A stretch of DNA of 64,000 nucleotides, taken from the IMG/VR virus record IMGVR_UViG_3300018426_001942, positions 62,001 to 126,000 of that record; one strand, written 5' to 3'. The position numbers and the translations under genes are program-made. Below are positions 16,582 through 47,766 of this stretch, one piece after another. This stretch comes from a virus. The first letter of the stretch is position 1. Every line of letters starts with the position of its first letter. A model generated the notes under the pieces. The model was not told where the DNA came from. It saw only the letters and a program-made list of their open reading frames with translations, and did not search any database.

Positions 16582-17352
16582 ATGACTAAATTAATTACAG
16601 ATCCCCAAAACTATACTAGAGAAGACTTAAGAAACTTAGACTGGGATATGGTAAAGTTAAATGTTACTGTAGATCCTAAGCCTTTGCTAGAATGGTTTGA
16701 AACTGTAAAAACTACTTCTCCCGAAAGTTTATTTTTATTTTCTCAAAAAGACTTATTTGAATCGCATTTACTCGATCATCCTAGAATGAACGGCATATGT
16801 GTAGGTGATGCAGGATTTTGGGCATTACAGTGGCCTATACAAAGACGTGATGCTATACCTACTCCATTCTTTTGTAATAAAGAAAAATTTCCAGAAATGT
16901 TAGACGAAACATGGGAAAATAAAATGGACAACCATCTTGAACAATATTATTTTGGTGCGTACAAGAGTATGATAGATCAATTAGGAGAAGATGCGTGGAC
17001 ATGGGGTAGAGCTATGAACTGTGCTAAGGAATGTGGCATTGGGCCACATAGAGATCACGACGGTGAAGACATGTCAGAACATATGATTCGATTACACGTT
17101 AACTTGCAAACTAACGAAAATTCATCATGGCATTTCTTTTCACAGTTAGGAGAAACACCTGCTGATACTTGGCAATACGAACGTGCAAGTTATAATCCTA
17201 AGCCTGGTGAAGTTTACCTAGTTAATGTGAGCAATGTACATGCTCCTGTAAATCACGGAGATGAAGAATGGATATTGTTACACTCTGACCCATCAAATGA
17301 CGCTGTAGATAGATTGTTAAAAAGCGAGACTCATATTACATACAATGGCTAA
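16582..17352 (+). CDS. 2OG-Fe(II) oxygenase, aspartyl/asparaginyl hydroxylase-like
   Basis: A 256-residue member of the Asp/Asn beta-hydroxylase-like branch of 2-oxoglutarate oxygenases, which hydroxylate protein or small-molecule carbons. The iron-binding pattern is GPHRDHDGED (154-163, H156 and D158) and VSNVHAPVN (216-224, H220), with Arg170 before LHVNL and a GEVYLVN strand. The N-terminal 100 residues (DWDMVKLNV, then ALQWPIQRRDAIP) match the paralogues at 22618-23361 and 23354-24103, so it belongs to one expanded family. It is the first gene of the island and lies behind the fibre-gene terminator. Confidence 0.8.
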   Translation: MTKLITDPQNYTREDLRNLDWDMVKLNVTVDPKPLLEWFETVKTTSPESLFLFSQKDLFESHLLDHPRMNGICVGDAGFWALQWPIQRRDAIPTPFFCNKEKFPEMLDETWENKMDNHLEQYYFGAYKSMIDQLGEDAWTWGRAMNCAKECGIGPHRDHDGEDMSEHMIRLHVNLQTNENSSWHFFSQLGETPADTWQYERASYNPKPGEVYLVNVSNVHAPVNHGDEEWILLHSDPSNDAVDRLLKSETHITYNG

Positions 17353-18160
17353 CATTAAAACAAGATTAAATACTTCTATTCTTTACAAAAAGACTGACTG
17401 GCCATATCAACACGACAGCATGATTCCTAATACAAGTTCTAATTACTACGGACCTGATAACGAAAGACTACACGAGCGTAACAAAAAATATCAAGATAGT
17501 AGTTGGATATACAATAACAAAGAGATTAATTACAACTTCAACAGTTTAGGATTACGTATGTCTAATGAAGTAGATTTAACCAAAGACTTAATTTATTTTA
17601 GTGGCACAAGTTATACTTTAGGTATTGGTGTGGACGAGAAAGATAGATACACTGATATATTGTCTAAAGAACTAGACACACCTATGCTAAGTTATGCTGG
17701 TCCTACATATAGCACTAAACTACAAGTTATATCATTTTTTAATTATGTAAACTTACACGGTGCTCCAAAAAGTGCATGTTTTGAATTTCCGCCTGCACAC
17801 GGATATACATTTTTTACAGATCATTTTGCTTTTACGTTTACTGGCAGTCATAGGCCTAAATGCAATTATGTAGAACCTTATGAATTACTAGAACGTACTG
17901 ACTTCTTACAAAACGAAGCAGAAATATATGTAAACATGTTAGAAGTATTTTGTAAGACTAACAACATACCATTAACTATGTTTAGTTACTTTCCTACTAC
18001 TTTGCCTATTATACGTATTAATATTGATCTACTAGGTATCGAAGATAATAATGAAAAATTTGCTAGAGACATTTGTAAACAAAACGGTACTATATCAGGC
18101 CATCCAGGTATAGGTGTACATAGACATACAGCAGATGTATTAAAGGATAGACTACTATGA
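17345..18160 (+). CDS. SGNH/GDSL-like hydrolase
   Basis: A 271-residue protein that overlaps its neighbours by 8 and 4 bases. DLIYFSGTSYTLGIGVDEKD (about 81-100) resembles the nucleophile block GDS-x-T-x-G, but with GTS in place of GDS. Near the C-terminus SGHPGIGVHRHTADVLKD (about 250-267) resembles the last block that carries the catalytic His. Members of this fold are esterases, acyl- or sulfo-group transferases or hydrolases on glycans and lipids. No signal peptide is visible. The altered first block leaves activity uncertain. Its neighbours suggest an acyl-transfer step. Confidence 0.55.
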   Translation: MANIKTRLNTSILYKKTDWPYQHDSMIPNTSSNYYGPDNERLHERNKKYQDSSWIYNNKEINYNFNSLGLRMSNEVDLTKDLIYFSGTSYTLGIGVDEKDRYTDILSKELDTPMLSYAGPTYSTKLQVISFFNYVNLHGAPKSACFEFPPAHGYTFFTDHFAFTFTGSHRPKCNYVEPYELLERTDFLQNEAEIYVNMLEVFCKTNNIPLTMFSYFPTTLPIIRINIDLLGIEDNNEKFARDICKQNGTISGHPGIGVHRHTADVLKDRLL

Positions 18161-18825
18161 GCATAACACTTTATACATCAGGTAGTACAGACGAACCTAA
18201 ACAAATAACACATTCTTGGAAATACATTAATGAATGTGCTAGACGTAGTGCTAAAGAAATACAACTAACCAGCAAGGATGTTGTACTAGATGTGTTTCCT
18301 GCTAATACTATTGCACATTGGACTATAACAGCGTATCCTAGCGTTTTAAGCGGCGCACAGTACGTTTGTAGCAACTTTACGCCATATACATACATACAAG
18401 CATTTAAACGCTTACAACCGTCTTATATTGCGCTTATACCGCGTCATTTAGAGCTTTTACAAAGTACAAAAGGCTTTAAAGACTTAGATATGAGTTGTGT
18501 ACGTTACATGGTAACAGGTAGTAATAAAATAGATCAAGACTTTATAAATGCATTTAAAAATAGAGGTGTACAGTGTGTAGCAAACTGGTATGGTATGACA
18601 GAGTTTCCGCCACCTATTCTTATAGGGTATGACAGTCCTAGTTTTGACTTGTACAATCGACCAACTGATGATCATATAATGTTTCACCCTGTATCTGCTA
18701 CATCTAATTTAGGTGAAGCAATAATAAACGGTAGGTCTACAGGTGATATCTTTGACACACAAACAATGACATTCTCGCATAGAAGAAAAGAAGCAAATGG
18801 AAAAACTTGGAAGACTGACGTTTAG
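18157..18825 (+). CDS. Minimal ANL-type adenylating enzyme
   Basis: A 222-residue protein with the core motifs of acyl/aryl-CoA ligases and NRPS adenylation domains: TLYTSGSTDEPK (4-15) is the P-loop-like A3 motif, NWYGMTE (143-149) the A5 motif, and STGD (194-197) the A7 motif. Normal ANL enzymes have about 500 residues; this one lacks the N-terminal part before A3 and the whole C-terminal lid with the catalytic Lys. The frame is intact and overlaps genes on both sides, so it looks like a compact enzyme and not debris. It may activate a carboxylic acid as an adenylate for the GNAT-like protein that follows. Confidence 0.75.
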   Translation: MSITLYTSGSTDEPKQITHSWKYINECARRSAKEIQLTSKDVVLDVFPANTIAHWTITAYPSVLSGAQYVCSNFTPYTYIQAFKRLQPSYIALIPRHLELLQSTKGFKDLDMSCVRYMVTGSNKIDQDFINAFKNRGVQCVANWYGMTEFPPPILIGYDSPSFDLYNRPTDDHIMFHPVSATSNLGEAIINGRSTGDIFDTQTMTFSHRRKEANGKTWKTDV

Positions 18826-19342
18826 AACATTATCTAAAAATGACAGAGATGCTGTTGAGATATTTTGTAATTCTCAGTCTTATAGCAACAACACTTCTTT
18901 AGAAAAAATGAAATGGGACTGGTGCCCGTTTTGGTGTGCAGCATTTGACCAAGAACGTATTGTAAGTATTGCTGGCGCACACGAACTTCCTGAAGTATCA
19001 CCTAATGCCTATAGACTATTATTTAGAGGCGCACAATTACCAGGCTACACGTTAGGCACTGGTAGAAATATATTTAAAACTGGAATACATTTAAGTTATC
19101 TATTGCCTATACAGATTGATTGGGCAACTAAAAATCCTAACGCACAACTTTATATTAGTACTAACATCAACAACGACGGTGGCAAAAGCCAACGTATGAA
19201 TAATACTATTATGCCAATGCTTGCTAAAACAGGAATTTGGACTTTAGATCGTAAGATGGAGTTGTACAATGTTCCGCAGAACTTGTGGCGTATTAATGTT
19301 TCAAAGTATATGGAAGAGCGTAGCCGTTCGCTAAACACCTAA
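18797..19342 (+). CDS. GNAT-like acyltransferase
   Basis: A 181-residue protein that overlaps the ANL gene by 29 bases. LTFRTLSKNDRDAVEIF at the N-terminus, a strand pair CAAFDQERIVSIAGAHELPE and a later YISTNINNDGG resemble the order of a GCN5-related N-acetyltransferase, though the usual R/Q-x-x-G-x-G/A acyl-CoA loop is not plain (LGTGRNIFKTG is the nearest). The coupling to an adenylating enzyme suggests transfer of an activated acyl group. Its last 50 bases overlap the 3' end of the halogenase gene on the other strand. Confidence 0.5.
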   Translation: MEKLGRLTFRTLSKNDRDAVEIFCNSQSYSNNTSLEKMKWDWCPFWCAAFDQERIVSIAGAHELPEVSPNAYRLLFRGAQLPGYTLGTGRNIFKTGIHLSYLLPIQIDWATKNPNAQLYISTNINNDGGKSQRMNNTIMPMLAKTGIWTLDRKMELYNVPQNLWRINVSKYMEERSRSLNT

Positions 19343-20399
19343 AACTATATTCATCAAAGATAGTAAAAGGTTTCTTTTTAATCTCAATTTCTTTTACTTG
19401 ATTTTGCCAATAGGGCGTATTCTTACTTGTTGCTTCATAATGTAGTGCAAGAAAATCTTCAATATGTTTTACAACCTTAACATATTGTCTATTGTAAACT
19501 TTTTGTTTACCATATAATTTAACTAGCATTTCAATTTGATACTGTATTAACCAAATTGCTTGTGCTTCTAAAGGTTCAATAAATCCAGCACTTAACCCTA
19601 TGTTTAGTATATTATCTTGATATGGTGTTGGACAATATTTACTTTCCCAATGTAATACTCGCATTTTGTCTAATTCAAGAGTATACGGACACTTTTCGAT
19701 AAACTCGCGTTTAGCATCTTCAACTGTTTGATGTTCAGTGCTAAACACGTAACCATTACCAATGCGGTTTTGTAAATAAATGTTCCACATCCAACCATTA
19801 CTCATGGCAGTTGTTTCTGTATAGTACTTTAGCTCTTTATCATAACTAGGTGCTACTACAGCACAATTATTTTTAAGGCGTGTACTAACCATTTCTCTTT
19901 TAGGAAATAATTTATTAAATCCTGTACAATTAATAATTAAGTCAGCTTGTAAATCATCAATAGTATCTAATGTACGTGTTTCTAATTTAACACCATTTGG
20001 CAATGCTACTTTATCACGCAACATAATACCAAATTTATTTGCATCTATATGATATGCATGACGCCATTTTTTATCTGGTAACTCGTAGTTTTCCATCCAA
20101 TGCATTTGCTCGTCGTGTTCTGTTTCATCAAAACAAAAATGATGAAACCAACTTTCGCCGTGCCAATTTTTATGTTTAATTGTATACTTACGAACCGCAT
20201 CACAATTATCAAATAAGTCTTGCTCAGTTAATCCGCAATCATGTATAAAGTCATACATGCTAGGCAGTGTACTTTCACCTACACCTATTATAGGTATATC
20301 TTGACTTTGGATAACTGTAATATCCCAGTCGGTCTTTTTAGAAAGATATGAGGCTGTCATCCAACCTGCTGTTCCGCCGCCTACAATAATTATATTCAT
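19293..20399 (-). CDS. Flavin-dependent halogenase (tryptophan-halogenase family)
   Basis: A 368-residue FAD enzyme of the PrnA family, which makes hypohalous acid and passes it to a catalytic Lys. IVGGGTAGW (5-13) is the FAD-binding start, VGESTLPS (40-47) the second conserved block, and Lys71 in DAVRKYTIKHKNW lies at the position of the catalytic Lys. The normally W-x-W-x-I-P motif is WMWNIY (203-208), with Tyr for Pro. It is much shorter than PrnA (about 540 residues). A marine cyanophage halogenase, VirX1, is known to halogenate and especially iodinate many substrates, so a phage enzyme of this type is plausible. It is the last gene of the minus-strand unit and overlaps the 2OG gene by 4 bases. 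Confidence 0.88.
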   Translation of the reverse strand: MNIIIVGGGTAGWMTASYLSKKTDWDITVIQSQDIPIIGVGESTLPSMYDFIHDCGLTEQDLFDNCDAVRKYTIKHKNWHGESWFHHFCFDETEHDEQMHWMENYELPDKKWRHAYHIDANKFGIMLRDKVALPNGVKLETRTLDTIDDLQADLIINCTGFNKLFPKREMVSTRLKNNCAVVAPSYDKELKYYTETTAMSNGWMWNIYLQNRIGNGYVFSTEHQTVEDAKREFIEKCPYTLELDKMRVLHWESKYCPTPYQDNILNIGLSAGFIEPLEAQAIWLIQYQIEMLVKLYGKQKVYNRQYVKVVKHIEDFLALHYEATSKNTPYWQNQVKEIEIKKKPFTIFDEYSFRCLANGYALPYTLKH

Positions 20400-21571
20400 A
20401 CGTTTATTTGTGTCCTTAAAAAAATATTTATTTTTCCTATGGGTATTTTAAAATGTAAATGGATTCTATCTGTAGAACCTTTGTTAATCGTAGTGTGTAT
20501 ACGTTTTGTATTTACAATGTAAACATTATTAGGTTCTAATACATACGGGTGTTGATCAATAATAAAATGCGAATCGTTATTAGCATACAACGGAATATGT
20601 ACTCTTACATGCTCGTCTTTATCTGCGTGAGGCGGTATTCCAGAATTTTCAGGATGCCCAGTAATAACTAATTCTTCTATATAAGGAATCTGATCGTATA
20701 GTTTTTTAGCAAAACCTTTGAGCATCTTAGTAGGCTTTATAATAGGATCAAATGCTTTCTTGTCTTTACGCATACCTGGAGGCAATGGACGTTCGTCTAC
20801 ATTTTCGCAATTAGTTAATATAGCGTATCCGTATAATCCTTTTAGATTAGTTCCTGGAACTTCGGGCATTGTCCATTTTAGGTAATCAAAATTATCTACA
20901 AGGTCATTATAGTATTCTTTAAGTTCATCAAAATTAAATTTTACATTTTCTATTTTTTTGCAATCAAAATTTATTTGAGCTGGATCTAATATCCACTCTG
21001 TATTAAGTAATTCATCTACATTGTCTACAGGTATTTTAAATATTAAATGTACTCTGTCTGTGTCGCCTTGATTAATTGTACCATGTTGATTAGTAGTATT
21101 AATAAGATATGCTTTACCTTCTTGCAAATTATACTTTGAATCACCAAATACAAAATAACTTTGATTATTCGTTTGTATAGGTATATGCACTTTTACAAAC
21201 TCAGTATTATCTATATGTTGTTGTATAACTGTATCAGGTGGGTGGGCACTTATAACTGTTTGTCTAATATCAGGTATTGCATCTACAATATACTTGCCAA
21301 ACCCAAATACAAGCTCAGTAGGATTATCAAACGTACCTAATACTTCACTGTCATGTTTAATGTCATATGGCGGACAAGGCTTTGTAGTGTCTTTTAAATT
21401 ACTTTGTATAGCCCAACTGTATACATTGTTTACTTTGTGATCTAATGTATTTGTACTATCTGGTTGCCACTTTAAGTTGTCATACTGAGATACTTTAGCA
21501 TAATAGTCTTTTAGTTCTTGCAACGAAAATTTAAAGTTAGGTAATTCTTTAATATCAAAATCAAACATCAT
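20396..21571 (-). CDS. Tandem two-domain 2OG-Fe(II) oxygenase
   Basis: A 391-residue protein made of two similar Asp/Asn-hydroxylase-like domains (about 1-190 and 200-391). Each has the start PNFKFSLQELKDYY or KFNFDELKEYY, an H-x-D site (QQHIDNTEF; PPHADKDEH), a VHIP strand, and a distal His in TTNQHGTINQGDTDR or TKRIHTTINKGSTDR. Both domains keep all predicted iron ligands and the Arg for 2-oxoglutarate, so both may be active. The fusion reflects a tandem duplication within the same gene family that fills this unit. It is translated just upstream of the halogenase. Confidence 0.85.
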   Translation of the reverse strand: MMFDFDIKELPNFKFSLQELKDYYAKVSQYDNLKWQPDSTNTLDHKVNNVYSWAIQSNLKDTTKPCPPYDIKHDSEVLGTFDNPTELVFGFGKYIVDAIPDIRQTVISAHPPDTVIQQHIDNTEFVKVHIPIQTNNQSYFVFGDSKYNLQEGKAYLINTTNQHGTINQGDTDRVHLIFKIPVDNVDELLNTEWILDPAQINFDCKKIENVKFNFDELKEYYNDLVDNFDYLKWTMPEVPGTNLKGLYGYAILTNCENVDERPLPPGMRKDKKAFDPIIKPTKMLKGFAKKLYDQIPYIEELVITGHPENSGIPPHADKDEHVRVHIPLYANNDSHFIIDQHPYVLEPNNVYIVNTKRIHTTINKGSTDRIHLHFKIPIGKINIFLRTQINV

Positions 21572-21986
21572 GATACCTTTCTAATAGACTATAAACATGT
21601 TTGTTATGACCTCTGTCATCTATTGTTTCGTTATTATAATACTTTTTAACATAGTTGGCAACAGCAACACTTCTCGATTGTCCTTTTGCACAATATACAT
21701 GTAATGTAGCACCCTCTGGTATTTTGCGTATAAAACTTATAATTTGTTCTGCTTGTTTATCGCTACATGCTGTGGCATGTATTATTCGTTGTGTGTTATT
21801 GTACCATTGTATTGCTTTTAATCCTGTTTTTTCAACATCTTCAAATTTTAAATTTAAAACATTATCTGCATCTGCCATAACAGGCTCAGAATGTATCCAA
21901 TTACCATTACTGTGTATACCAATAAGATATTCGTTGTTAGGTATAGGGTGCATATCTTTCATTGCATATGTTTTTACATTAACCAT
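21561..21986 (-). CDS. CX5R phosphatase (dual-specificity-like)
   Basis: About 141 residues. ATG 21986 is preferred to an in-frame ATG at 22007 because it overlaps the upstream gene by only 13 bases. The segment LHVYCAKGQSRSVAVANYV holds the Cys-x5-Arg loop (Cys99 and Arg105) of Cys-based phosphatases, followed by the usual Ser and helix. IHATACSDKQAEQIISFIRK before it fits the central fold. An Asp general acid is not certain. It could remove phosphate from protein tyrosine/serine, sugar phosphate or a pathway intermediate. Confidence 0.75.
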   Translation of the reverse strand: MVNVKTYAMKDMHPIPNNEYLIGIHSNGNWIHSEPVMADADNVLNLKFEDVEKTGLKAIQWYNNTQRIIHATACSDKQAEQIISFIRKIPEGATLHVYCAKGQSRSVAVANYVKKYYNNETIDDRGHNKHVYSLLERYHDV

Positions 21987-22627
21987 GCTTTTACGTCCTC
22001 GATCCACACTTTACCATAAAGATGTACTCTGTCTGTTGTACCTTTGTTTTCAACACTATGAGGAAGTGTTGTGTTTACAAGATATGCCCAACCTGGTTCC
22101 ATGTGATATTCTTTACCGTTTATAATCCAATTACTATCTTTGTTAGTGTGTATAGGAATATGTACCCTAATTTTATCTGGACTGTCTTGATGTGTAATTA
22201 ATTTAGTTCCAGTTACATGCTCAGTTACTAACCATTTTTTACTACGAAAGGGTAGACTTTTAACAAGCTCTAATCCGTATCCTGTAAAACATTTTCTAGG
22301 ATTTAATTCATCATTATCATTATCCCTATACTCCGGTTTTGCACAACCTTGCTCAAAAGGTTTAGGACCTTCTTCGTCACTATTCCAGCATAACGTATAA
22401 TAACCAGTTTCGTCTGGTATAATATGTCCAGTCTCCCCAGTAGGGTCACTAATTGGAAACTGCCACACATGATGATTTTCTCCTACAACAAATTTCCAAT
22501 CTTTATAATTTTCTTGTAGATCATTATACCAATCCTGTAACTTTTTGACATCAACACAAAATATACGTTTAACGTCAAATCCTAGATCAACTGTTTGATG
22601 CTCTTCTATATATCTCTTCATTTCCAA
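21974..22627 (-). CDS. 2OG-Fe(II) oxygenase, aspartyl/asparaginyl hydroxylase-like
   Basis: A 217-residue member of the island's oxygenase family. The iron site is LITHQDSPDKIRVHIPIHTN (about 145-164) with H-x-D, and TTLPHSVENKGTTDRVHL (about 188-205) with the distal His and the 2-oxoglutarate Arg. Its N-terminal half has an acidic loop (RDNDNDELNPRKCF) not seen in the paralogues, so the substrate may differ. It overlaps both neighbouring genes by about 10 bases. Confidence 0.83.
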   Translation of the reverse strand: MEMKRYIEEHQTVDLGFDVKRIFCVDVKKLQDWYNDLQENYKDWKFVVGENHHVWQFPISDPTGETGHIIPDETGYYTLCWNSDEEGPKPFEQGCAKPEYRDNDNDELNPRKCFTGYGLELVKSLPFRSKKWLVTEHVTGTKLITHQDSPDKIRVHIPIHTNKDSNWIINGKEYHMEPGWAYLVNTTLPHSVENKGTTDRVHLYGKVWIEDVKAWLM

Positions 22628-23361
22628 TTAACTAAATCCATAAATTTATCATTGCGTATATCTGAAATAATATTTGCCCTTGCTGTTGGACTAAAGTTTG
22701 TAGTAGAATGTGTAACTCTTGAATTTATAATATAAACATTTCCTGGTTCAAAGTTATATTCTCTATTCCATTTTTCTCCCCAATAAAATTTACTATTGTC
22801 ATATGTCATAGGAATATGTAATCTAGCACAGTATCCGTCTGTATGCGGATGAAGTATATGCTCAGGCATGTGTTGCGTTATTCGTGGATTGTAAATATAG
22901 TTGCCTATTTCTTCTACTATAGATTTCCATTCTCCAAAATTATATTGGGTAAGATATGTATTATCATTATAATCAAAATCTTTTACAACATTACCGTCAT
23001 TATCAAAGTAACTTTTTAATTCTGTAAAAAATTCTACGTCAGCAGCCCAAGGAGGCGGAAGGGGTACATCTCTGTGAGTTGGCCAAGTTAATGTCCACGA
23101 GTTAATTAATGCTTCATATGTTTTGTTACGTTCCCATTCGTAATCATTTGTATCGGTAGTAAATTTATTATTGACAGATTCTTTTATGTACTCAGAACAT
23201 GTTTGAAAATTAAATTTTAAATAATCTAAGTTAGATGTAACAATATTATACCAATATTGTAAATTTTTTATAGCTATTTTTTTATCTAATATAATAATGT
23301 CCCATTCTAAACTTTCTAAAACTGACAGGTCAACTTGAGAAGGTTTTAGAACTTTATCCAT
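22618..23361 (-). CDS. 2OG-Fe(II) oxygenase, aspartyl/asparaginyl hydroxylase-like
   Basis: A 247-residue paralogue of the oxygenases at 16582 and 23354. The shared N-terminal block reads LEWDIIILDKKIAIKNLQYW and, later, WTLTWPTHRDVPLPPPW. The iron site is LHPHTDGYCARLHIPM (about 171-186, H-x-D) and INSRVTHSTTNF (distal His, about 217-228). The 2-oxoglutarate Arg is in the TARANII segment, a slight change from the TDR seen in other members. It is coupled to the next paralogue by an 8-base overlap. Confidence 0.82.
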   Translation of the reverse strand: MDKVLKPSQVDLSVLESLEWDIIILDKKIAIKNLQYWYNIVTSNLDYLKFNFQTCSEYIKESVNNKFTTDTNDYEWERNKTYEALINSWTLTWPTHRDVPLPPPWAADVEFFTELKSYFDNDGNVVKDFDYNDNTYLTQYNFGEWKSIVEEIGNYIYNPRITQHMPEHILHPHTDGYCARLHIPMTYDNSKFYWGEKWNREYNFEPGNVYIINSRVTHSTTNFSPTARANIISDIRNDKFMDLVNWK

Positions 23362-25532: not shown

Positions 25533-25533
25533 T

Positions 25534-37863: not shown

Positions 37864-37869
37864 CTTATT

Positions 37870-39020: not shown

Positions 39021-39613
39021 TATATACCTCTTGTAAGTATTACACCGTTATTACCACTGTATGCTATGTTATAACCATGTATTACCGCATAAGGTATTAC
39101 AGGCCCATTTTTACCAAAGTATACTCCTGCACTTTTGTTGTATGGTGTATCGTCACATATAATTAAACTTTGATCGTGCATGTATGGCATACAATTAATC
39201 ATCTGTTCAAGATGCTCACGTTGGCAATCAAAATTTGACATCTTAACACCCATAGCATTATATTCGTCTATTAGTTTTTGTTCCGCAGGACGTATATTGT
39301 CCATAGTGCTTATCCAATCATAATTATCAAGATACAAAATCTTAATTTGTTTTTTTAATTTAGGTAATTCCTTTTTTGTCCATTCGGCTCCAGAATTTGT
39401 AATAACAAAAGTAGTGTGTTTTAGATGGCTTAATGTTCTAGATGCAAAATCTGTTACATCGACTGAATAAAAATCTACCCAATGATCGTTTGCTACAGAA
39501 TTAAACCATTCTGTGGACCCTTCGCCTCGCTCGCTTCCTATTTCTAATATAATAGACGAGTTAACTTTTAGTTTATCTACAAAAGGTTTTGCATACAAAT
39601 GAAAATTAGCCAT
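39020..39613 (-). CDS. Class I methyltransferase-like protein
   Basis: A 197-residue protein. SIILEIGSERGEGSTEWFN (about 20-38) resembles SAM-binding motif I, DFYSVDVTDFA the acidic-residue strand, and KILYLDNYDW (about 91-100) and SLIICDDTPY (about 154-163) later core strands, as in the Methyltransf_24/CmcI-like group that methylate sugars and small hydroxy groups. It sits between two glycosyltransferase-like genes with a 1-base and an 8-base overlap, so methylation of a sugar is a fair guess. Confidence 0.65.
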   Translation of the reverse strand: MANFHLYAKPFVDKLKVNSSIILEIGSERGEGSTEWFNSVANDHWVDFYSVDVTDFASRTLSHLKHTTFVITNSGAEWTKKELPKLKKQIKILYLDNYDWISTMDNIRPAEQKLIDEYNAMGVKMSNFDCQREHLEQMINCMPYMHDQSLIICDDTPYNKSAGVYFGKNGPVIPYAVIHGYNIAYSGNNGVILTRGI

Positions 39614-41673: not shown

Positions 41674-41674
41674 C

Positions 41675-42949
41675 TTAATTCCCATATTTTTCTGTTATTA
41701 AATCTAATTCAACATCAGGTAATGTTTTTAAATGTTGAAAATTATATTCAACAATTCCTGCTACTTCTTCAGTAAATTTTATCTTACGTTCGTCCGACCA
41801 ATTTGATATTGAGTTTACAATATCACAAATTTGTTTTATGCGTTCTACTGGATCAGCAACAGTATCATAATCTTCTGACCACCAGTGATCAAAAGTTTTG
41901 AATCCCATGTCTTTTATATGTTGTAAACTTCCTTTTGCACCCATCATTATAAATGGTTGCTTATAAGCAATAGGCTTATAAGTTTTTTCTGTAATGTGTA
42001 TTTCATCAGTAAAGAAAAAAGTTTCGCTAATAATATTTATTAGGCTATTTTTAAAATAATGCTCTATTGATTCCTCAGTTGACTCCATAGGATAACTGTT
42101 AAAGTTAGGATTATCTAGCACTAACGGAAGTTTATTTTTACTAGGTAAAATATCATCTTTAGTAATATCTAAATTAGGATAACGTTTTATAAGATAATCA
42201 ACATTACTTTCGAATGATCTTCCAGACTCTGGTTGCTTGCTATCCATGCTCATATAAAATTTGTCAAGTAGTTTTAGTTTAAACATTTTAATAAAAAATG
42301 TAAGTCTGTGATCACTATACCTACGCTGAAAACATAAGAAATCTTTCTCTCTTGGTCCAATAATATACGGATCTTGTTTGAGTAGTGTTTGCTCCACGTT
42401 TGTTCTATGTATTTTAAATGTAGGAAAATATTCTACATTAATCTTAGGACCTGGTTTATTTTCTGCCCACTTATTATACAGCTCTTGTCCGTTAGCACAA
42501 TTTGTAAAATAAACAACCTTGTCTAAAGGTATTTCGTAATGATTAAAAAATTGTGTCATTACTTCCCAGTGCCTATGAGTTACCCAACCTTCAAATGGAA
42601 TGGTAACAAGTATGTATCCGTTACCATTCTGTATTTGGTCTCTAATTAACGAACTAGGCGGATTATTAACAAATGGTCCGTCAGTAGTACTAAAAAGTTT
42701 TGTCCAATCTCTATAATAATACGATGTGAAATTTAATTCGTAAAAGTATTTTTTGTCTTGTGGGATTTTAAATGCAGAAATAATTTCTCTATTTTTAAAT
42801 GACTGAAACACTACTGGTGCTTGTACATCATCATCTACGTGTCCTTCATTCATAGCATAATTTATGTCTGCTAGTGTAGGTACTCTATTGTTAGTTATTG
42901 GCCATTTAGGTCCGCACCATTTGTATGCAAAACTTAAAATTTTAGACAT
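41675..42949 (-). CDS. Glycosyltransferase-like protein with TEK(T) motif, copy 3
   Basis: A 424-residue protein. The C-terminal motif is NIISETFFFTDEIHITEKTY, then KPIAYKQPFIMMGAKGSL and IKDMGFKTFDHWWSEDYD (about 312-370). Before it comes DFLCFQRRYSDHRLTFFIKM, an Arg-rich segment that may bind phosphate groups. Its N-terminal half is the longest of the three relatives. Overlaps the radical SAM gene by 8 bases. Confidence 0.68.
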   Translation of the reverse strand: MSKILSFAYKWCGPKWPITNNRVPTLADINYAMNEGHVDDDVQAPVVFQSFKNREIISAFKIPQDKKYFYELNFTSYYYRDWTKLFSTTDGPFVNNPPSSLIRDQIQNGNGYILVTIPFEGWVTHRHWEVMTQFFNHYEIPLDKVVYFTNCANGQELYNKWAENKPGPKINVEYFPTFKIHRTNVEQTLLKQDPYIIGPREKDFLCFQRRYSDHRLTFFIKMFKLKLLDKFYMSMDSKQPESGRSFESNVDYLIKRYPNLDITKDDILPSKNKLPLVLDNPNFNSYPMESTEESIEHYFKNSLINIISETFFFTDEIHITEKTYKPIAYKQPFIMMGAKGSLQHIKDMGFKTFDHWWSEDYDTVADPVERIKQICDIVNSISNWSDERKIKFTEEVAGIVEYNFQHLKTLPDVELDLITEKYGN

Positions 42950-44318
42950 TACTACAATCCTTATAAAAGTTTTCTAACTCAGGAAATGTTTCAACTAAGT
43001 TAGTATCTCTACGTTTGTCATATTCAGAAAACCAAGAATAAAAATTACGTTTGCCTTTGATAATTGTTTCTTCATCATAATTTGTATTTCTCATGTAGTC
43101 TACAACCCGTCTAAATCTTTCATATTCTAAAGAACTAAATTTTGTACGGTCTTTGTCATTTACGTTTGACTCTATAAAGTTTAAGTGGTCTTCCATATAT
43201 GGCATAAACTTTTCTTTAGGCAAAATATTCATATCAAATTGTAAAGGTTCTTTTAGATACGGTGTATCAAATCTAACACGTTGCCACTGTGTTTCATTTG
43301 TATCAGTATTGTACTTTTGTCGCCATTCTAAAATCTTTACTAGTAGCAAACTAAAACTAGTAACAGCAAACAAATTAAATGTTACCATAAACGTTACAGG
43401 CCAACCTGTACTACTTAGGTAATAATCTAAATTCTTTTCCCAAAGCTCAATGTCAAGTCCGGTACGAGTATATTCTGCACGTGGTCCCCAGGTGTCAATA
43501 CTAGTATATAACTTAAAACTATTAATACAGTTTTTTGCCTTAAGATCTTTAACACGCTCTACAAGTCTATAAACCATTGCAGGCTTTACGCCCATATTAC
43601 TGTTAAGTTCTATATTAAGATGAGGTTTAGGATTTTCTTCTAATTCGTCAAACAATCGCCATGTACTCTTATGCATGAGCGGCTCACCGCCTGTAACACG
43701 CAATATGTTTAGTGTTTTACTAACTTCAGGCCACCACTTCCACCATGCATCTACATACGGATTAGTTTCTTCTTCATATAATTCAAACCAGTCAATGTCA
43801 TTTCTGTGTTCTGTGCTGTCGCTGTATGGGCCGTAATGTTTTATTTCATTATAGTATCTACTACTAAATTTTGGATGGCAATAACCGCATTTAAAATTAC
43901 ATTCATTACTAAAGTTTACTTCTATATATTCTGGATTAATATCGTAATCCCAAGGATTGCTTTTTATTTCTTCTATCCTTTCAGGAGTATAAATGCTTGT
44001 AGTCTTGATATGTCTGTCACTTACATAGTCCTTGCCCATACATTCTATATTCCAGCAATATTGACAGCCACTGGGCTTGCCTCCATTTAGCATTGCTAAC
44101 CGTTCTTGTTTTTTCTGTGGAGTATTATGTAACTGGCTCGGATTTTCATCTAACCCTTCGAGTGGAATTTTATGAGGTGCAGGATGGTAGCAACTATGTG
44201 TCTCGCCTGTTTGTAAATAAATTGTAACATGATGCCATTTTGCTAGACAAAAAGTAGGCGAGGTTTCTCTTTCTACTTTAGGCATAATTTCTTTAATCCT
44301 GATTAGCTCAGTATTCAT
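42942..44318 (-). CDS. Radical SAM enzyme with N-terminal Cys-rich part
   Basis: A 458-residue enzyme, the largest of the island's radical SAM proteins. TFCLAKWHHVTIY, THSCYHPAP and GCQYCWNIECMG in the first 115 residues look like auxiliary cluster ligands. FSNECNFKCGYCHPKF (about 151-166) is the core motif and RVTGGEPLM (about 226-234) the GGE. The order matches the genes at 26301 and 31645, but this protein has a long C-terminal extension of about 150 residues. It is the only radical SAM gene within the glycosyltransferase unit. Confidence 0.87.
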   Translation of the reverse strand: MNTELIRIKEIMPKVERETSPTFCLAKWHHVTIYLQTGETHSCYHPAPHKIPLEGLDENPSQLHNTPQKKQERLAMLNGGKPSGCQYCWNIECMGKDYVSDRHIKTTSIYTPERIEEIKSNPWDYDINPEYIEVNFSNECNFKCGYCHPKFSSRYYNEIKHYGPYSDSTEHRNDIDWFELYEEETNPYVDAWWKWWPEVSKTLNILRVTGGEPLMHKSTWRLFDELEENPKPHLNIELNSNMGVKPAMVYRLVERVKDLKAKNCINSFKLYTSIDTWGPRAEYTRTGLDIELWEKNLDYYLSSTGWPVTFMVTFNLFAVTSFSLLLVKILEWRQKYNTDTNETQWQRVRFDTPYLKEPLQFDMNILPKEKFMPYMEDHLNFIESNVNDKDRTKFSSLEYERFRRVVDYMRNTNYDEETIIKGKRNFYSWFSEYDKRRDTNLVETFPELENFYKDCSNV

Positions 44319-45205
44319 CTTTTCTTAATTATCCTCGGTGTGTTTTGATACACACTTTTAAAAAATCTACTACCTTGTGCATCTAGGTCTGATATTTCTA
44401 AATCTAATTCATTACGCAAATTATTACCGTACTTAAAACTTTCAGATTTAACATCAAGTTCACTTACTTTTTCTTCTTTCCAATAATTTGTTAGGTATTT
44501 AAAATCTCTTACATTAGTATAGTCCCAATCTGTACACATTGTCATGTAACAGCCCATTCTTGCACCAAGTATACTCCAATCTCCATACTCTACATCTGCT
44601 CCAACAGTACACCATATACGCAATCTATCTAAGTTTTGCCACCAAACTTTTTTTATGTCAGTTGCTTTGGCACCTTCGTTAAGGCTCATTTTAACGCCTT
44701 CGCGAAATCCTGCTCTCCAAGCCTGAAATGGAGACCCGTTTGTATAACTTACTGAATAATTATCATTAAATTGATAATATTTTTCGTCAAAACAAAACTC
44801 TACAAGTCCTTTCGTATCGTCTGGATTTGAATTTTCATGTGTTTTCATATTATGGACGAACTTACGAGTCCACATTTTTAATCCACCATTGCCGTACATA
44901 AGTCCGTTAACGTGAACTTTGCCACACCAACTAAAAACATAGTCTTCAGTGACGCCTAACTTTTCTAAATCAATTTCTTGCTGTAAAAATTCAGTGTCTA
45001 TTATGTTGTCACCGTCAACTGTGACAAAATATTCTGTTTCACTTAGATCTGCACATGCCTTGTGTGCGGCATCTGATCCGTCTACACCATGAACACGCTT
45101 TGCCCAAGGCAACTTGTTACACAAGTCTGCATAGTTTTTTTCAGCATTTGGTTCGTCATAAGATAAAAAGATAATATCTTGATCAATGACTTTGATTTTA
45201 CTCAT
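44315..45205 (-). CDS. GT-A-like glycosyltransferase
   Basis: A 296-residue protein. IIFLSYDEPNAEKNY (11-25), GSDAAHKACADL (43-54) and EYFVTVDGDNIID (58-70) form the nucleotide-sugar-binding part, with the D-x-D at 64-66. GLMYGNGGLKMW and TNGSPFQAWRAGFREG follow. The same blocks occur in module 4 of the protein at 36187. It is probably a soluble transferase that adds a sugar to a phage or host acceptor. Confidence 0.68.
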   Translation of the reverse strand: MSKIKVIDQDIIFLSYDEPNAEKNYADLCNKLPWAKRVHGVDGSDAAHKACADLSETEYFVTVDGDNIIDTEFLQQEIDLEKLGVTEDYVFSWCGKVHVNGLMYGNGGLKMWTRKFVHNMKTHENSNPDDTKGLVEFCFDEKYYQFNDNYSVSYTNGSPFQAWRAGFREGVKMSLNEGAKATDIKKVWWQNLDRLRIWCTVGADVEYGDWSILGARMGCYMTMCTDWDYTNVRDFKYLTNYWKEEKVSELDVKSESFKYGNNLRNELDLEISDLDAQGSRFFKSVYQNTPRIIKKR

Positions 45206-45773
45206 TTACTACCTCGCAAGAATACTTCTGAAACCTTCTATTAGTATATACACTAAAATCTTCAAGATTAAACTGAGTCTGGCTGTTAAACTCGAGTTCA
45301 TTATCGATTAAATGCTCTACTGTAGTGGTAAAATATTCGTGCAAGATATTCGGATTATTCTTCTGCGTAACAGAAAACCTTAAATTTTGATTTATTCTTT
45401 CTTTTTTATCTTCTAGTTCTAGTTTTGCCTCGTCTGATAAAGAAATATTCCACAAATTTTGTTTTGTTTTGTATTTTACTATAACTTGAGCATTATTTGT
45501 TGGAATAATTTTATACACATTATCATTAACATCTGACTCAATTTTCTTATTCTTAGATACAATTACATAAGATGATGTTCCGACATCATAAACAACTTTG
45601 TGCGTTGTTATACTTTTGTTGCCGTCTAGAAAATCACGTATATCTTCAATTTGTGCCGGGAAAGAGCTCTCAAATTCCTGTTCTATGTTAGATATAGATT
45701 TAATATCTCCTGTATCTTTATCAAAATATACCTTATGTTTGATTTCAAATTTAGGTGTCTGTAGTACAATCAT
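45198..45773 (-). CDS. Hypothetical protein in the glycosyltransferase unit
   Basis: A 191-residue strand-rich soluble protein (KFEIKHKVYFDKDTGDIKSI, HKVVYDVGTSSYVIVSKNKK). No enzyme motif is visible. It looks more like a structural or binding protein than the enzymes around it. It is coupled to both neighbours by short overlaps. Confidence 0.55.
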   Translation of the reverse strand: MIVLQTPKFEIKHKVYFDKDTGDIKSISNIEQEFESSFPAQIEDIRDFLDGNKSITTHKVVYDVGTSSYVIVSKNKKIESDVNDNVYKIIPTNNAQVIVKYKTKQNLWNISLSDEAKLELEDKKERINQNLRFSVTQKNNPNILHEYFTTTVEHLIDNELEFNSQTQFNLEDFSVYTNRRFQKYSCEVVNE

Positions 45774-46606
45774 ATATCTAACCTCTTTTCTAGTATACTC
45801 AAAATGTCATCTGTTAAGAAACTATCTTCAGTGTAATGGAAAATACCAGTTTGCTTGTAATTACCAATAAAAAGTTCTGCTTGATTTGTAAAATATGAGC
45901 CAACTTTCGTTTGCCAACTCTCACGAATATCATTCCAGCCTTGTATGTTTGCTTTCATGTGTGTAAATGAAGGATTAGGTAAATTAGGATTAGTAACTTT
46001 TGACTTACAGTCAAGCATATCTACAGTCATTGCTGCCGTTAAATCCATACTTGCAAAATTTTGTATTAATTTATCGCCCTTAACCTTATAAAAATCCTGC
46101 CAATTGTTAGTAATAGTATCTAACCATTTGTAAAATTCAAGTGCAAAATCACTTTTCTTAAAATAATGGAAACCCATGTACACATCAGGTAAATGTAACT
46201 TTTTAAAATTACGTCTATAAAATGTATCTGTAACTCTTTCACCTCTGTAATCATAAACTGTTGACGTTAGAAACATATCATAAGGTTGTAAAATTTCCAT
46301 CCAACTTGTAATATCGTCTAACACTAACATGTCTGTGTCTAACACTATTGCATCATCATAAGGAGATATAAAGTAAGTTTTCCATCTATTGTGTATTTTC
46401 CAATCATACTTGTTTGCTAAGTCGCCCCATGGTATTTCAATAATGTTATCAAACAGGTCTTTGTATTTTTCAGGCACAACATTATCGGTTAGAATACTAA
46501 TTTTAGAATTAGGAGTAGTGTTGTGTATGCTCATAGCAAGAGCACATGCTTGCTGCACGTAATCAACATGTTCAGTATTTTGTGCAACTAGAATAAAATT
46601 AGGCAT
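45770..46606 (-). CDS. GT8-like glycosyltransferase, copy 1
   Basis: A 278-residue protein with the order of glycogenin-like GT-A enzymes: LVAQNTEHVDYVQQACALA at the start, KISILTDNVVPEKY, then DDAIVLDTDMLVL (84-96) with the metal-binding D-x-D at 90-92, and a later FTHMKANIQGW block. It is a paralogue of the next upstream gene. GT8 enzymes use UDP-sugars and retain the sugar configuration. The acceptor is unknown. Confidence 0.72.
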   Translation of the reverse strand: MPNFILVAQNTEHVDYVQQACALAMSIHNTTPNSKISILTDNVVPEKYKDLFDNIIEIPWGDLANKYDWKIHNRWKTYFISPYDDAIVLDTDMLVLDDITSWMEILQPYDMFLTSTVYDYRGERVTDTFYRRNFKKLHLPDVYMGFHYFKKSDFALEFYKWLDTITNNWQDFYKVKGDKLIQNFASMDLTAAMTVDMLDCKSKVTNPNLPNPSFTHMKANIQGWNDIRESWQTKVGSYFTNQAELFIGNYKQTGIFHYTEDSFLTDDILSILEKRLDI

Positions 46607-47426
46607 CTATTATTTCCTCTAATGCATATTTGTTCATTACATGCACACTATTTCCTAAAAACTTACAAGGAATAAATTGATCAATAGTATTTTCTTTTTG
46701 TAGTAAGAACGTAAATTTATCATCTTGAATACTGTGAACTAAATCTCTATCCGCCGTAAAAAACAATTTACCCGGCATTGACTTTGCAAAATTTCCTTGC
46801 TTAAAATTGTTCATTATATGAATTGCAATACTAAAAGCATAATCGTTTCTATAAGTTGTGGAGACAATATTATAAACATTTCTATAGTGTCTATAATTTT
46901 CCTGTATATGCTTTAATAAATTAAAAAAAGTTCTATTTAATTCTGTTTTTCTAAAAAATACACAAGTAGCCCAATAAAAATCTACACTTGTTTCACTTAT
47001 AAATTTAAATTCACTTGTATCTCTTGATGCTAGATCAATAGCATCTTTGTAAATTAAAAAGTCATAGGCACTATCATAAGCATTTTTTAATATGCTATCT
47101 GCAATAACATAATCACTATCTAGTACTATAGTTTCATCATACGGACTAAGATCAAAAGCAAGTACCCTATCATCATTTTTGAAATCTAAAACTTTGTGTG
47201 TCTTTGCACTATTGTAAAAATATTTCTTGCTGGACTCAACTGTGATATCATTTATAATAATTTTATCAAATACATCTTTATACCTGTCATTAATGCTCTG
47301 TTTATCTGTAACTATAGAAACAGGAATAGACAAATATTGTTCAGCACGTTTTGCAAGAAAAGCTGCTTGCTTTACATAATCAATTTCACTGTTATTATGT
47401 GCAAAAACAAGAATACCTTTACTCAT
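46599..47426 (-). CDS. GT8-like glycosyltransferase, copy 2
   Basis: About 275 residues from ATG 47426 (MSKGILVFAH); an ATG at 47441 is also in frame but overlaps more. It shares the order of copy 1: LVFAHNNSEIDYVKQAAFLA, SIVTDKQSINDRYKDVFDK and DETIVLDSDYVIAD (97-110), where D-x-D is DSD. Sequence identity with copy 1 is low outside these blocks, so the duplication is old or the two were acquired separately. Confidence 0.7.
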   Translation of the reverse strand: MSKGILVFAHNNSEIDYVKQAAFLAKRAEQYLSIPVSIVTDKQSINDRYKDVFDKIIINDITVESSKKYFYNSAKTHKVLDFKNDDRVLAFDLSPYDETIVLDSDYVIADSILKNAYDSAYDFLIYKDAIDLASRDTSEFKFISETSVDFYWATCVFFRKTELNRTFFNLLKHIQENYRHYRNVYNIVSTTYRNDYAFSIAIHIMNNFKQGNFAKSMPGKLFFTADRDLVHSIQDDKFTFLLQKENTIDQFIPCKFLGNSVHVMNKYALEEIIDA

Positions 47427-47766
47427 TAAAGATGCCTTCAACTGATCGTTGCTTTTTGATTTTATTGTATTCGGTGAAATACTTGTTAGAGGCTTCTGCG
47501 TATGTTTTTACAAGATTATTTGTAAACCTTGGTAAATCATCTACAAGAATAGGAATGCCATTATCATCTGTAAGTACAATTTGATCTTGTTCTAAACTTA
47601 CTAGACTTTGACAAAAACTAATTAGTTCTTTAGAGGATGTAAACTGACAGCCGCTTTCGTAATGTATTAAGTCTGATTGATATTGTTGCTGTAAAAGATT
47701 CTTTTGTTGATTTATAATGTCAAGTAATTTACTTGCTTCAAGTGCTTTTGCTAATTTTTCGTCCAT
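47419..47766 (-). CDS. Small coiled-coil hypothetical protein
   Basis: A 115-residue helical protein. It starts with a coiled coil (KLLDIINQQKNLLQQQYQSD), has FTSSKELISFCQSLVSL and ends in a charged helix. I associate this pattern with small proteins near tail genes of T4-like marine phages. It is the first gene of unit E, 19 bases after the predicted transcription start, and has GGAGA as ribosome binding site. Confidence 0.55.
   Translation of the reverse strand: MDEKLAKALEASKLLDIINQQKNLLQQQYQSDLIHYESGCQFTSSKELISFCQSLVSLEQDQIVLTDDNGIPILVDDLPRFTNNLVKTYAEASNKYFTEYNKIKKQRSVEGIFNE

Follow-up and report, generated by a model that had tools for sequence, protein, structure and literature searches.

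Aquatic T4-like phages carry sugar, 2OG and halogenase genes, and it is a question in print whether these genes do anything. Proposed roles include stuffer DNA and a draw-down of 2-oxoglutarate (in the relevant passages of PMC3037559), and comparable islands have been read as changing host polysaccharides or the host surface (PMC7029224) or as a metabolite system (PMC7824862), in the sections of these two papers that deal with them. Islands of this kind are already published, i.e., the pelagimyophage host recognition cluster (HRC) and a cyanophage halogenase/2OG cluster. The island analyzed here lies in a 64,000-nucleotide stretch of viral DNA (hereafter, the window) and had been described in an initial annotation as about 34 enzyme genes set between fibre genes, which raises the question of what these genes encode, whether they belong together and what they might act on.

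Layout of the island and its flanks

The annotated place and packing held up, with 35 ORFs counted at 16582-47766 that are tightly packed between fibre-type genes with a largest intergenic gap of 68 bp, but several of the enzyme labels are weakly based. Pfam curated cut-offs are exceeded by 13 of the 35 ORFs (ANL, HAL, OG2, OG3, OG5, OG6, RS1-RS5, UGD and EPI), and family assignments are absent for about one third of the island genes. The right half lies on the same strand as the fibre genes and after them, and no gap there is wider than 50 bp. The flanking features are:

15439..16524 (+), Mtd, fibre connector-like gene, left flank; Mtd_N 43.3 bits, above cut-off; PHROG 677 (baseplate wedge tail fibre connector)
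16537..16579 (+), hairpin preceding OG1; -17.5 kcal/mol, z -4.34, equalled in 0 of 200 shuffles
48299..51799 (-), FIB1, fibre-type gene, right flank; PHROG 863, tail fibre assembly
52848..54347 (-), S499, fibre-type gene, right flank; PHROG 19602, tail fibre protein

In the hairpin (five sequences aligned), the 3' arm contains the AGGAG upstream of the OG1 start, and a T run comes after this arm. To the right of the island lies S1583, a giant tail protein (4615-4962 aa in relatives); the placement criterion for the HRC is a position between VrlC and gp14.

The HRC is described, in the parts of PMC7029224 devoted to it, as an island among the structural genes of T4-like aquatic phages that combines radical SAM cassettes with glycosyltransferases and fibre genes. 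The island studied here shares with it the large size, the fibre genes, the radical SAM genes and a location among the structural genes of a T4-like phage, given its fibre-type flanks and a polymerase that falls in the T4-like jumbo range. However, the same account reports HRC content as nonsyntenic, whereas gene order in the island is conserved over 18-26 clusters, with some cassettes varying, unlike the hypervariable content of the HRC.

Enzyme families encoded in the island

Presence counts below refer to 39 loci of the core gene U489 with at least 9 kb on both sides, drawn from 61 U489 loci on viral contigs (26 clusters). The radical SAM and 2OG hydroxylase genes are:

26301..27335 (+), RS1, core twitch radical SAM; NF033640 224.8 bits; 39/39 loci at no less than 38% identity
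30072..30995 (-), RS2, radical SAM; 43.8 bits; 33/39 loci at no less than 35%
31645..32940 (-), RS3, twitch radical SAM; NF033640 407.8 bits
33522..34508 (-), RS4, radical SAM/SPASM; Radical_SAM 35.7 bits, SPASM 26.2 bits
35211..36194 (-), RS5, radical SAM; 42.3 bits
42942..44318 (-), RS6, twitch radical SAM; NF033640 315.4 bits; 202 viral stretches
16582..17352 (+), OG1, 2OG hydroxylase-like; about 29% to OG5; HxD...H
20396..21571 (-), OG2, two 2OG hydroxylase domains; Asp_Arg_Hydrox 82.6 bits in two stretches
21974..22627 (-), OG3, 2OG hydroxylase; Asp_Arg_Hydrox 42.7 bits
22618..23361 (-), OG4, 2OG hydroxylase; Asp_Arg_Hydrox 18.1 bits, below the cut-off of 22.6
23354..24103 (-), OG5, 2OG hydroxylase; Asp_Arg_Hydrox 36.9 bits
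25534..26232 (-), OG6, core 2OG hydroxylase; 50.7 bits; 38/39 loci at no less than 73% identity
30992..31648 (-), OG7, 2OG hydroxylase-like; 34% to a Mosig homologue

All six annotated radical SAM enzymes were borne out, RS1-RS5 by scores above Pfam cut-offs and RS6, which falls below its Pfam cut-off (27.1 vs 29.5 bits), by the NCBIfam twitch radical SAM model NF033640, whose curated cut-off of 170 bits is exceeded by RS1, RS3 and RS6. The count of seven 2OG genes with eight domains likewise stands, with indirect evidence in the case of OG1 and OG7: Pfam gives no Asp_Arg_Hydrox match for either, and both are assigned by paralogy (about 25-30% identity) and the HxD...H pattern, and OG7 also matches a gene of Pelagibacter phage Mosig annotated as Asp_Arg_Hydrox. 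The annotation would have been undermined by a widespread loss of catalytic residues, but CxxxCxxC is present in every distinct radical SAM copy scanned and HxD/E...H in every distinct 2OG copy. These enzymes are accompanied by the following genes:

19293..20399 (-), HAL, 368-aa flavin-dependent halogenase; Trp_halogenase 244 bits
17345..18160 (+), SGNH hydrolase-like, allele partner of HAL; SGNH-like blocks by eye; not in the initial annotation
18157..18825 (+), ANL, compact 222-aa adenylating enzyme; AMP-binding 69.9 bits
27322..27777 (+), APH, core compact kinase-like protein; RIO1 22 bits; 39/39 loci
21561..22007 (-), DSP, CX5R phosphatase-like; DSPc E 0.015; PHROG 5614 at 1.3e-15
18797..19342 (+), GNAT-like protein (putative label); same position in 39/39 loci, 31 of them at no less than 35% identity
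24063..25532 (-), U489, core gene; 61 viral-contig loci; weak fold matches
27740..28975 (+), PRO1, propeller-like; Kelch E 0.0019, below cut-off; 32/39 loci
28965..30107 (+), PRO2, propeller-like; 32/39 loci
32933..33532 (-), MT1, methyltransferase-like; 27% to a Mosig gene annotated as methyltransferase
39020..39613 (-), MT2, methyltransferase-like; Methyltransf_24 E 0.09
34501..35211 (-), UGD, short nucleotide-sugar dehydrogenase; UDPG_MGDP_dh 54.4 bits
40696..41685 (-), EPI, sugar epimerase/dehydratase; Epimerase 145 bits
36187..37863 (-), U558, putative; related to U296 (about 30%); no Pfam or PHROG match
37884..39020 (-), GTx1, putative glycosyltransferase-like; no match in family searches
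39606..40721 (-), GTx2, putative glycosyltransferase-like; no convincing match in family searches
41675..42949 (-), GTx3, putative glycosyltransferase-like; no match in Pfam, profile or member-by-member Pfam scans
44315..45205 (-), U296, conserved protein preceding RS6; 75/80 RS6 loci
45198..45773 (-), U191, conserved protein; 66/80 RS6 loci
45770..46606 (-), GT8a, glycogenin-like; profile to glycogenin E 0.005
46599..47441 (-), GT8b, GT8a paralogue; about 29-37% to GT8a
47419..47766 (-), U115, conserved protein; heads U115-GT8b-GT8a-U296-RS6 in 49/49 RS6 loci (those with at least 7 kb upstream)

Family scores agree with the annotated halogenase, short adenylating enzyme, short nucleotide-sugar dehydrogenase (UGD) and epimerase-like protein (EPI), all four being above Pfam cut-offs. 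HAL has the GxGxxG motif and retains the catalytic Lys and Glu when aligned with PyrH and with VirX1, the viral flavin-dependent halogenase of cyanophage Syn10 (PDB 6qgm; E 3.1e-42), which is longer at 531 aa. Across HAL copies, the Lys motif is present in 38 of 38 rows and EPLE in 32 (missing in 6), and the WxWxIP site reads WMWNIYL in the window, with W.W.I found in 18 of 25 distinct copies. ANL lacks a full N-terminal domain and the C-terminal lid domain and covers only profile positions 168-329 of 384, but its length is constant (213-225 aa in 21/21 distinct copies of at least 80% length), TSGST, YGMTE and TGD are invariant in 16 aligned copies, and its predicted model resembles ANL enzymes. 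The SGNH-like protein has no Pfam match; its Ser, Asp and His are invariant across 10 aligned copies.

Other labels fared less well. The kinase label is borderline by score (RIO1 at its printed cut-off of 22; APH 21 vs 23.2), although H, D, N and DWD never vary among the 17 copies of this 151-aa protein that were aligned. The phosphatase is weak in Pfam, its stronger match being to a PHROG of unknown function, and one of the two propellers has a weak Kelch match whereas PRO2 has none in the family search. Neither Pfam nor PHROG returned a match for the GNAT-like protein, and family searches confirmed neither the two methyltransferases (MT1 has no Pfam match) nor the seven glycosyltransferase-like genes; of the latter, GT8a reaches glycogenin through a profile only, in addition to a PHROG of unknown function, and its member-by-member Pfam scan gave nothing convincing. 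The U296 profile found no convincing match and none in the PDB. For U489, which has zero matches among 50,697 phage records, the predicted model (pLDDT 77.5, best Z 8.7) weakly suggests a GT-A-like N part and a methyltransferase-like C part.

Among known phages, the isolate Pelagibacter phage Mosig EXVC030M represents the HRC type, and its island holds homologues of OG7, RS4 (26%) and MT1 among tailoring-type genes, with no match in this stretch to HAL, ANL, PRO1, PRO2, U489 or RS1. The halogenase regions of jumbo cyanophage S-SSM6a (described in part in PMC7824862), Syn10 and Sf-CH11 resemble the island in that a flavin halogenase and 2OG hydroxylases adjoin virion genes, but HAL is the only island protein with a match there (26.7-30.5%).

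Conservation, selection and exchange of the gene set

Had the genes occurred singly and in random order in other phages, there would be little reason to treat them as a unit. Instead, the set returns among viral contigs as an ordered block in which some cassettes vary. U489, RS1 and APH (39 of 39 loci each) and OG6 (38) form a near-invariant core, and a module of PRO1, PRO2, OG3, OG5, OG2, HAL and ANL is whole in 31 loci and wholly missing in 7, with one further locus lacking HAL alone. This module is all-or-none even though APH-RS1-OG6-U489 separate the PRO genes from the rest of it. On the right, the order S337-U115-GT8b-GT8a-U296-RS6 is kept in 47 of 49 RS6 loci. At the seven module-less loci, the replacing ORFs look by eye like sugar-nucleotide enzymes, including a sugar-nucleotidyltransferase-like type.

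Purifying selection acts on the left-half genes, with omega between 0.026 and 0.225 across 23 genes and at or below 0.1 in 14 of these. The left half has also been swapped between phages as a block, more recently than its flanks (median pS of 0.31 in the 23 left genes vs 0.61 in 26 flanking genes). Within it, a comparison of 8 loci shows the HAL and SGNH alleles switching together every time, whereas the ANL gene between them does not follow. Selection, co-occurrence and this co-swapping argue that the set is a working pathway and, together with conserved order, intact motifs and block exchange, support the annotated idea of a joint modification function; we consider it very probable that the genes form one modular pathway.

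A late-promoter-like motif precedes fibre genes on both sides of the island, i.e., GATAAATA at 15394 before Mtd on the left and TATAAATA at 54384-54391 at the S499 gene on the right. The motif was picked after viewing the window's phage, with G011 and G013 serving as tests; in G011 it stands before three ORFs within the island, and the window's own island has no exact copy inside. Fibre linkage, co-orientation and these motifs suggest late expression, and we infer that the genes are expressed together with tail genes and that their acceptor is a virion tail or fibre protein. Between the window and G013, FIB1 shares just 56% identity while many block enzymes exceed 90%, indicating that these enzymes are not adapted to FIB1 over its entire sequence.

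What the pathway may act on

We give a probability of roughly 0.4 to the full reading of a late-expressed modular pathway that acts on tail or fibre proteins of the phage itself. Its main rival, which we regard as possible but less probable, is remodelling of the host envelope (lipopolysaccharide, capsule, lipid A) during infection, e.g., to block the adsorption of competing phages or to keep progeny off debris. The authors of PMC7029224, where they discuss a comparable island, interpret its glycosyltransferases in this way. The epimerase and UDP-sugar dehydrogenase would fit, and a radical SAM cluster of Vibrio phage K566 lies near a gene annotated as PagP (lipid A acylation). LpxO, a lipid A hydroxylase, shares the Asp_Arg_Hydrox family, and the sugar-nucleotidyltransferase-like ORFs of alternative modules (by eye) fit a host or a free glycan equally. 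However, Pfam names no flippase, polymerase or ligase for any of the 35 genes, the signs of late expression speak against envelope remodelling, and halogenases usually act on electron-rich arenes, which are unusual in surface glycans. The annotated preference for natural-product or protein modification over LPS synthesis is favored by the three twitch radical SAM enzymes and the usual arene substrates of halogenases but weakened by the sugar-nucleotide-like genes of module-less relatives and the published host-polysaccharide or metabolite readings.

Release of a free small molecule or peptide (an antibiotic, toxin, signal or protectant) by infected cells or at lysis appears unlikely: natural-product clusters often contain ANL, halogenase and radical SAM enzymes, but among the island's ORFs Pfam and PHROG name neither a carrier protein nor a transporter, nor a gene resembling the precursor peptide of a RiPP cluster, and a fixed site between fibre genes would be unexpected. 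Gaps in the island do not exceed 68 bp, although a very small or overlapping gene could escape this ORF count. Hypermodification of phage DNA, for which other phages use 2OG enzymes and glycosyltransferases, is very improbable because the family-matched 2OG genes belong to the Asp/Arg hydroxylase family, the island's Pfam matches name no DNA methylase or pyrimidine hydroxymethylase, and the GTP cyclohydrolase-like and QueE-like ORFs that could point to it (6159-7739, by eye) lie about 9 kb away. We give marginally less credence still to passenger DNA without joint function or a mere 2-oxoglutarate draw-down, both proposed for cyanophages where PMC3037559 treats 2OG genes with nitrogen signalling and LPS genes. 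Purifying selection, the all-or-none module, intact motifs and fixed gene pairs contradict passenger DNA for the shared genes, though it could hold for single unconserved ones, and a draw-down leaves the linked radical SAM enzymes and the HAL-SGNH pair unexplained.

In the reading with a virion tail or fibre acceptor, the pathway would be encoded at a fixed site beside fibre genes in a lineage of uncultured T4-superfamily phages. As to the order and chemistry of its steps, the core (U489, RS1, the small kinase, OG6 and more radical SAM enzymes) would make a common modified unit, the exchangeable module (two propellers, three 2OG hydroxylases, HAL and ANL) would hydroxylate, halogenate and acylate it, and a second variable block (EPI, UGD and glycosyltransferase-like genes) would add sugars. 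Bacterial O-antigen loci similarly occupy a fixed site and pair conserved parts and sugar genes with central cassettes that can be exchanged, but the island differs in being phage-borne and rich in radical SAM, 2OG and halogenase enzymes. Mycobacteriophages put glycans on tail and capsid proteins through their own glycosyltransferases (Freeman 2023, cited in PMC12619734), with no halogenase, 2OG and radical SAM set mentioned in the part of PMC12619734 that covers them.

Trading of alleles and modules among phages in the manner of O-antigen cassettes may give each phage its own "serotype". Doubtful in its entirety is the most specific picture, a serotype-like tail adhesin that is radical-modified, hydroxylated, halogenated, acylated and glycosylated, with a free-standing ANL enzyme of about 220 residues and traded modules; we know of no virion with such combined chemistry. 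For the question of whether such genes do anything, the analysis names parts open to testing, namely a minimal core, a module that can be removed and HAL and SGNH as matched enzymes, along with an unusually compact halogenase (368 aa), adenylating enzyme (222 aa) and kinase-like protein (151 aa).

Gene content of the island and identity of the phage

The island lies on a virus record of 151,964 bases, of which the window spans bases 62001-126000, and is bordered on both sides by fibre-type genes.

Island and bordering features (window coordinates)
15439-16524: Mtd, fibre connector-like gene of the left flank
16582-47766: the island
17345-18160: SGNH, hydrolase-like gene
18157-18825: ANL, compact adenylating enzyme
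48299 onwards: fibre-type run of the right flank

Between the fibre connector and the fibre-type run we count 35 ORFs, with a largest gap of 68 bp and a G+C content of 30-36% compared to 33-39% in the flanks (2-kb bins). Thirteen of these 35 ORFs were confirmed above the Pfam cut-off and NCBIfam added RS6, one of the six radical SAM genes (RS1-RS6), while labels for the others come from paralogy, motifs, or weak profiles. The initial annotation had described an island of tailoring enzymes, and this observation is sound, though around one third of the genes carry weaker labels and those naming glycosyltransferases, a GNAT protein, and methyltransferases are unconfirmed. Profile searches and Pfam scans gave no support for the glycosyltransferase labels of GTx3, U296, and GT8a except for a match of GT8a to glycogenin at E 0.005.

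We take the phage as a member of the T4 superfamily, and its description as marine would derive from related phages. The closest matches of its DNA polymerase come from Sinorhizobium phage Phosso (50.5%) and Agrobacterium phage Atu_ph07 (46.3%), and further T4-like genes were identified by eye. Left of the island, an ORF at 12653-13945 also finds its best match in Phosso (42.6%; 774 matches among phage records) and is the second member of what by eye is a pair of MoxR-like AAA and VWA/metallopeptidase-like genes (11463-13945). GTP cyclohydrolase-like and QueE-like ORFs adjoin each other at 6159-7739 (by eye), possibly reflecting 7-deazaguanine chemistry. At the right edge of the window, the ORF at 58932-63683 corresponds to part of a giant protein of 4615-4962 aa in the related virus records G013 and G011.

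Recurrence, the all-or-none module, and exchange between phages

Homologous loci were found through the halogenase HAL (13 loci), the core gene U489 (61 loci forming 26 clusters at 95% identity, with many near-identical), and RS6 (the best 80 of 202 stretches). We focused on 39 of the 61 U489 loci, representing 18 clusters, that extend for at least 9 kb on either side; ORFs of the relatives were picked by length without a gene finder and named by their best match to window proteins (E 1e-5), so that paralogues are counted, while some true copies fall outside the 10-kb flank, e.g., in G011. By this measure U489, RS1, and the small kinase-like APH occur in all 39 long loci and the 2OG hydroxylase-like OG6 in 38. 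RS2, RS3, the gene at the GNAT position, and the fibre connector also have a best match in 39 of 39 (paralogues counted), which becomes 33, 25, 31, and 23, respectively, at an identity of at least 35%; RS4 goes from 34 to 14 of the 39. Best matches to OG7 were found in 30, to the phosphatase-like DSP in 19, and to the methyltransferase-like MT1 in 15 long loci, and SGNH, OG1, and OG4 in 7 each.

The genes largely keep their neighbours, i.e., OG6-U489 (38/38), APH-RS1 (39/39), the propeller-like PRO1-PRO2 (32/32), HAL-GNAT (31/31), and GNAT-ANL (32/32), with less fixed pairs such as RS3-OG7 (14/30). On the right side, the order U115-GT8b-GT8a-U296-RS6 is found in every one of the 49 RS6 loci that reach 7 kb or more upstream, and S337 stands ahead of it in 47 of them. 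The set thus recurs in relatives as an ordered block, in contrast to the single, randomly placed genes that would have refuted the initial annotation. Scans of bacterial genome contigs with short exact peptides, which distant homologues could escape, gave 48 pattern stretches for U489 and 34 for PRO1, none of them confirmed. Among 50,697 isolated-phage records (tblastn, E 1e-5) neither U489 nor PRO1 had a match, while HAL matched 81, RS3 and ANL 3 each, RS6 2, and OG7 1.

Seven genes behave as an all-or-none module: among the 39 long loci, 31 carry PRO1, PRO2, OG3, OG5, OG2, HAL, and ANL together, 7 have none of them, and one lacks HAL alone, so that HAL is found in 31 and each of the other six in 32. 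Since APH, RS1, OG6, and U489 separate PRO1 and PRO2 from the other five, this module is not a single contiguous insertion. In the seven loci without it, different genes occupy its place, which in locus L094 are by eye sugar-nucleotidyltransferase-like, HAD phosphatase-like, and TauD-like oxygenase genes. An ORF resembling HemC (hydroxymethylbilane synthase; by eye) also lies inside the island of this relative (L094:424-1263).

Within the window's own group, HAL and SGNH each have two alleles (with identities of 41-43% and 38-41%, respectively), which are paired in 8 of 8 compared loci. Loci L051 and L054 are near-identical over most of the block, including an ANL of 99% identity (pS 0.04), and yet HAL (44%) and SGNH (40%) on either side of it are both replaced; GNAT (pS 0.32), MT1 (0.36), OG4 (0.23), OG1 (0.19), and OG3 (0.13) differ as well. 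The pair is replaced on a second background in L049 compared to L047, together with PRO2 and Mtd. Conversely, HAL, GNAT, and SGNH are near-identical between L054 and L047 (pS 0.04-0.09) around an ANL at pS 0.20. Two backgrounds underlie the co-swap, that of L051 and that of L049 and the near-identical L055, and this joint exchange around ANL suggests that HAL and SGNH may act in succession or on the same group. PRO1 and PRO2 also form two diverged allele groups each in the window's own group (ca. 62% and 55%), which track neither one another nor the HAL/SGNH alleles.

Across the 23 genes of the left part (OG1 to RS5), omega between the window and G013 is 0.026-0.225, with 14 of 23 at or below 0.1. 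Synonymous differences to G013 have a median of 0.31 in these 23 genes (range 0.12-0.69), 0.61 in the 26 genes of the flanks that have an orthologue of comparable length, and 0.655 in the right half (12 genes). In Mann-Whitney tests that treat genes as independent, the left part differs from the flanks with p 5e-8 (flank dS being near saturation) and the right half with p 0.24. Compared to the related record G003, dS of the left genes is also below that of most flanking genes. Lower synonymous divergence together with low omega indicates that the left part moved between phages more recently than its surroundings while its function was kept.

Catalytic motifs and predicted folds

Loss of catalytic residues in most genes, which would have spoken against an active pathway, was not seen. 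Among distinct copies of at least 80% length (paralogues included), the radical SAM motif CxxxCxxC is intact in RS1 (39/39), RS2 (38/38), RS3 (41/41), RS4 (34/34), RS5 (2/2), and RS6 (7/7), and every scanned 2OG copy has the HxD/E...H pattern. In APH, H, D, N, and DWD are conserved across 17 aligned copies, and the exact HGD form is seen in 27 of 38. HAL can be aligned with PyrH and VirX1 with conserved Lys and Glu; the Lys motif is present in 38 of 38 rows, EPLE in 32 of 38, and W.W.I, an inexact form of WxWxIP, in 18 of 25 distinct copies, while the window's own HAL reads WMWNIYL and keeps both Lys and Glu. Proteins in this slot are 365-386 aa long when window-like and otherwise 394-408 or 498-505 aa. 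Because EPLE is missing from six rows and WxWxIP is inexact, some of these proteins may be hydroxylating flavoenzymes instead of halogenases.

ANL is a free-standing ANL-type protein of ca. 220 aa (213-225 aa in all 21 distinct copies) that keeps core motifs without the first half of the domain. It begins at the P-loop, and YGMTE, TGD, one Arg, and a terminal GxTWK are kept in 16 aligned sequences. At E of about 1e-10, the ANL model (pLDDT 82.5) matches known ANL enzymes, with MenE, CysF, and FbsH leading the list. The U489 profile retrieved lysozymes alone from PDB sequences (E 0.3 or worse), and Foldseek found nothing at E ≤ 0.001 for the U489 model. VIA-align 2 (best Z 8.7) hints at a GT-A-like N-terminal part, resembling LH3, COLGALT1, and Mimivirus R699, and a methyltransferase-like C-terminal part, though families outside the VIA-align 2 listing are possible.

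Expression signals, proposed pathway, and known islands

The motif [GT]ATAAATA, which resembles the T4 late promoter, lies within 120 bp upstream of a same-strand ORF in 10 of 16 cases in the record compared to 5.7% of positions (p 2e-9), a motif picked after viewing this phage, with agreement in G011 (8/10) and G013 (3/6). Because TATAAATA is rarer than expected in the window (2 observed, 12.75 expected), we used position relative to ORF starts rather than counts. The motif is mostly found ca. 27-45 bp ahead of ORFs; in the window (10665, 15394, 54391) it heads the fibre connector and the fibre-type gene S499 and no island gene, while G011 has three sites ahead of ORFs within the island. The right half continues the fibre genes on the same strand, with no gap longer than 50 bp. 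Together, these features indirectly favour late expression of the island and hence a virion acceptor. A strong hairpin at 16537-16579, between the fibre connector and OG1, has a z of -4.34, ends in a T run, holds the AGGAG of OG1 in its 3' arm, and is kept in five aligned sequences (by eye, L049 has changes on both arms). Might the island have a terminator or attenuator here?

The joint pathway put forward in the initial annotation is strongly supported by shared gene order, the all-or-none module, constraint, and exchange. RS1, OG6, the kinase, U489, and more radical SAM enzymes would make and mount a modified unit; the module enzymes would then hydroxylate, halogenate, and acylate it, with HAL and SGNH as a specific pair, before nucleotide-sugar and glycosyltransferase-like genes would add sugars. 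Random cargo and draw-down of 2-oxoglutarate were rejected as explanations of the island, as was DNA modification as its main role.

Pelagimyophages are described as having, beside their fibre genes, an island with glycosyltransferases and radical SAM cassettes, which the authors interpret in terms of host recognition and host-wall change (PMC7029224). Cyanophage halogenase and 2OG genes have long been known (PMC2984593, PMC10452541, and PMC3037559), a report on Tasman Sea viral samples describes genes for radical SAM proteins and glycosyltransferases as common there (PMC7150976), and mycobacteriophage virion glycosylation is cited in PMC12619734. HAL is the sole island protein matched in the halogenase regions of S-SSM6a, Syn10, and Sf-CH11. 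Vibrio phage K566 matches island radical SAM genes at 18-26%; in this phage, radical SAM genes are clustered with genes of unknown function (L046:16705-34072), and a gene annotated as PagP lies among them. Among the open-licence papers listed by full-text searches, we recognised none that describes this block. We regard the island as a variant of an already known island type with unusually good evidence for working as a unit. A stretch of the cultured Pelagibacter phage Mosig matches OG7, RS4, and MT1, and the island of this phage (L108:6338-26254) has a different tailoring-type set, i.e., carbamoyltransferase, MoaA-like, nitroreductase, aminotransferase, and 2OG genes. Mosig offers a cultured system in which the idea could be tested.
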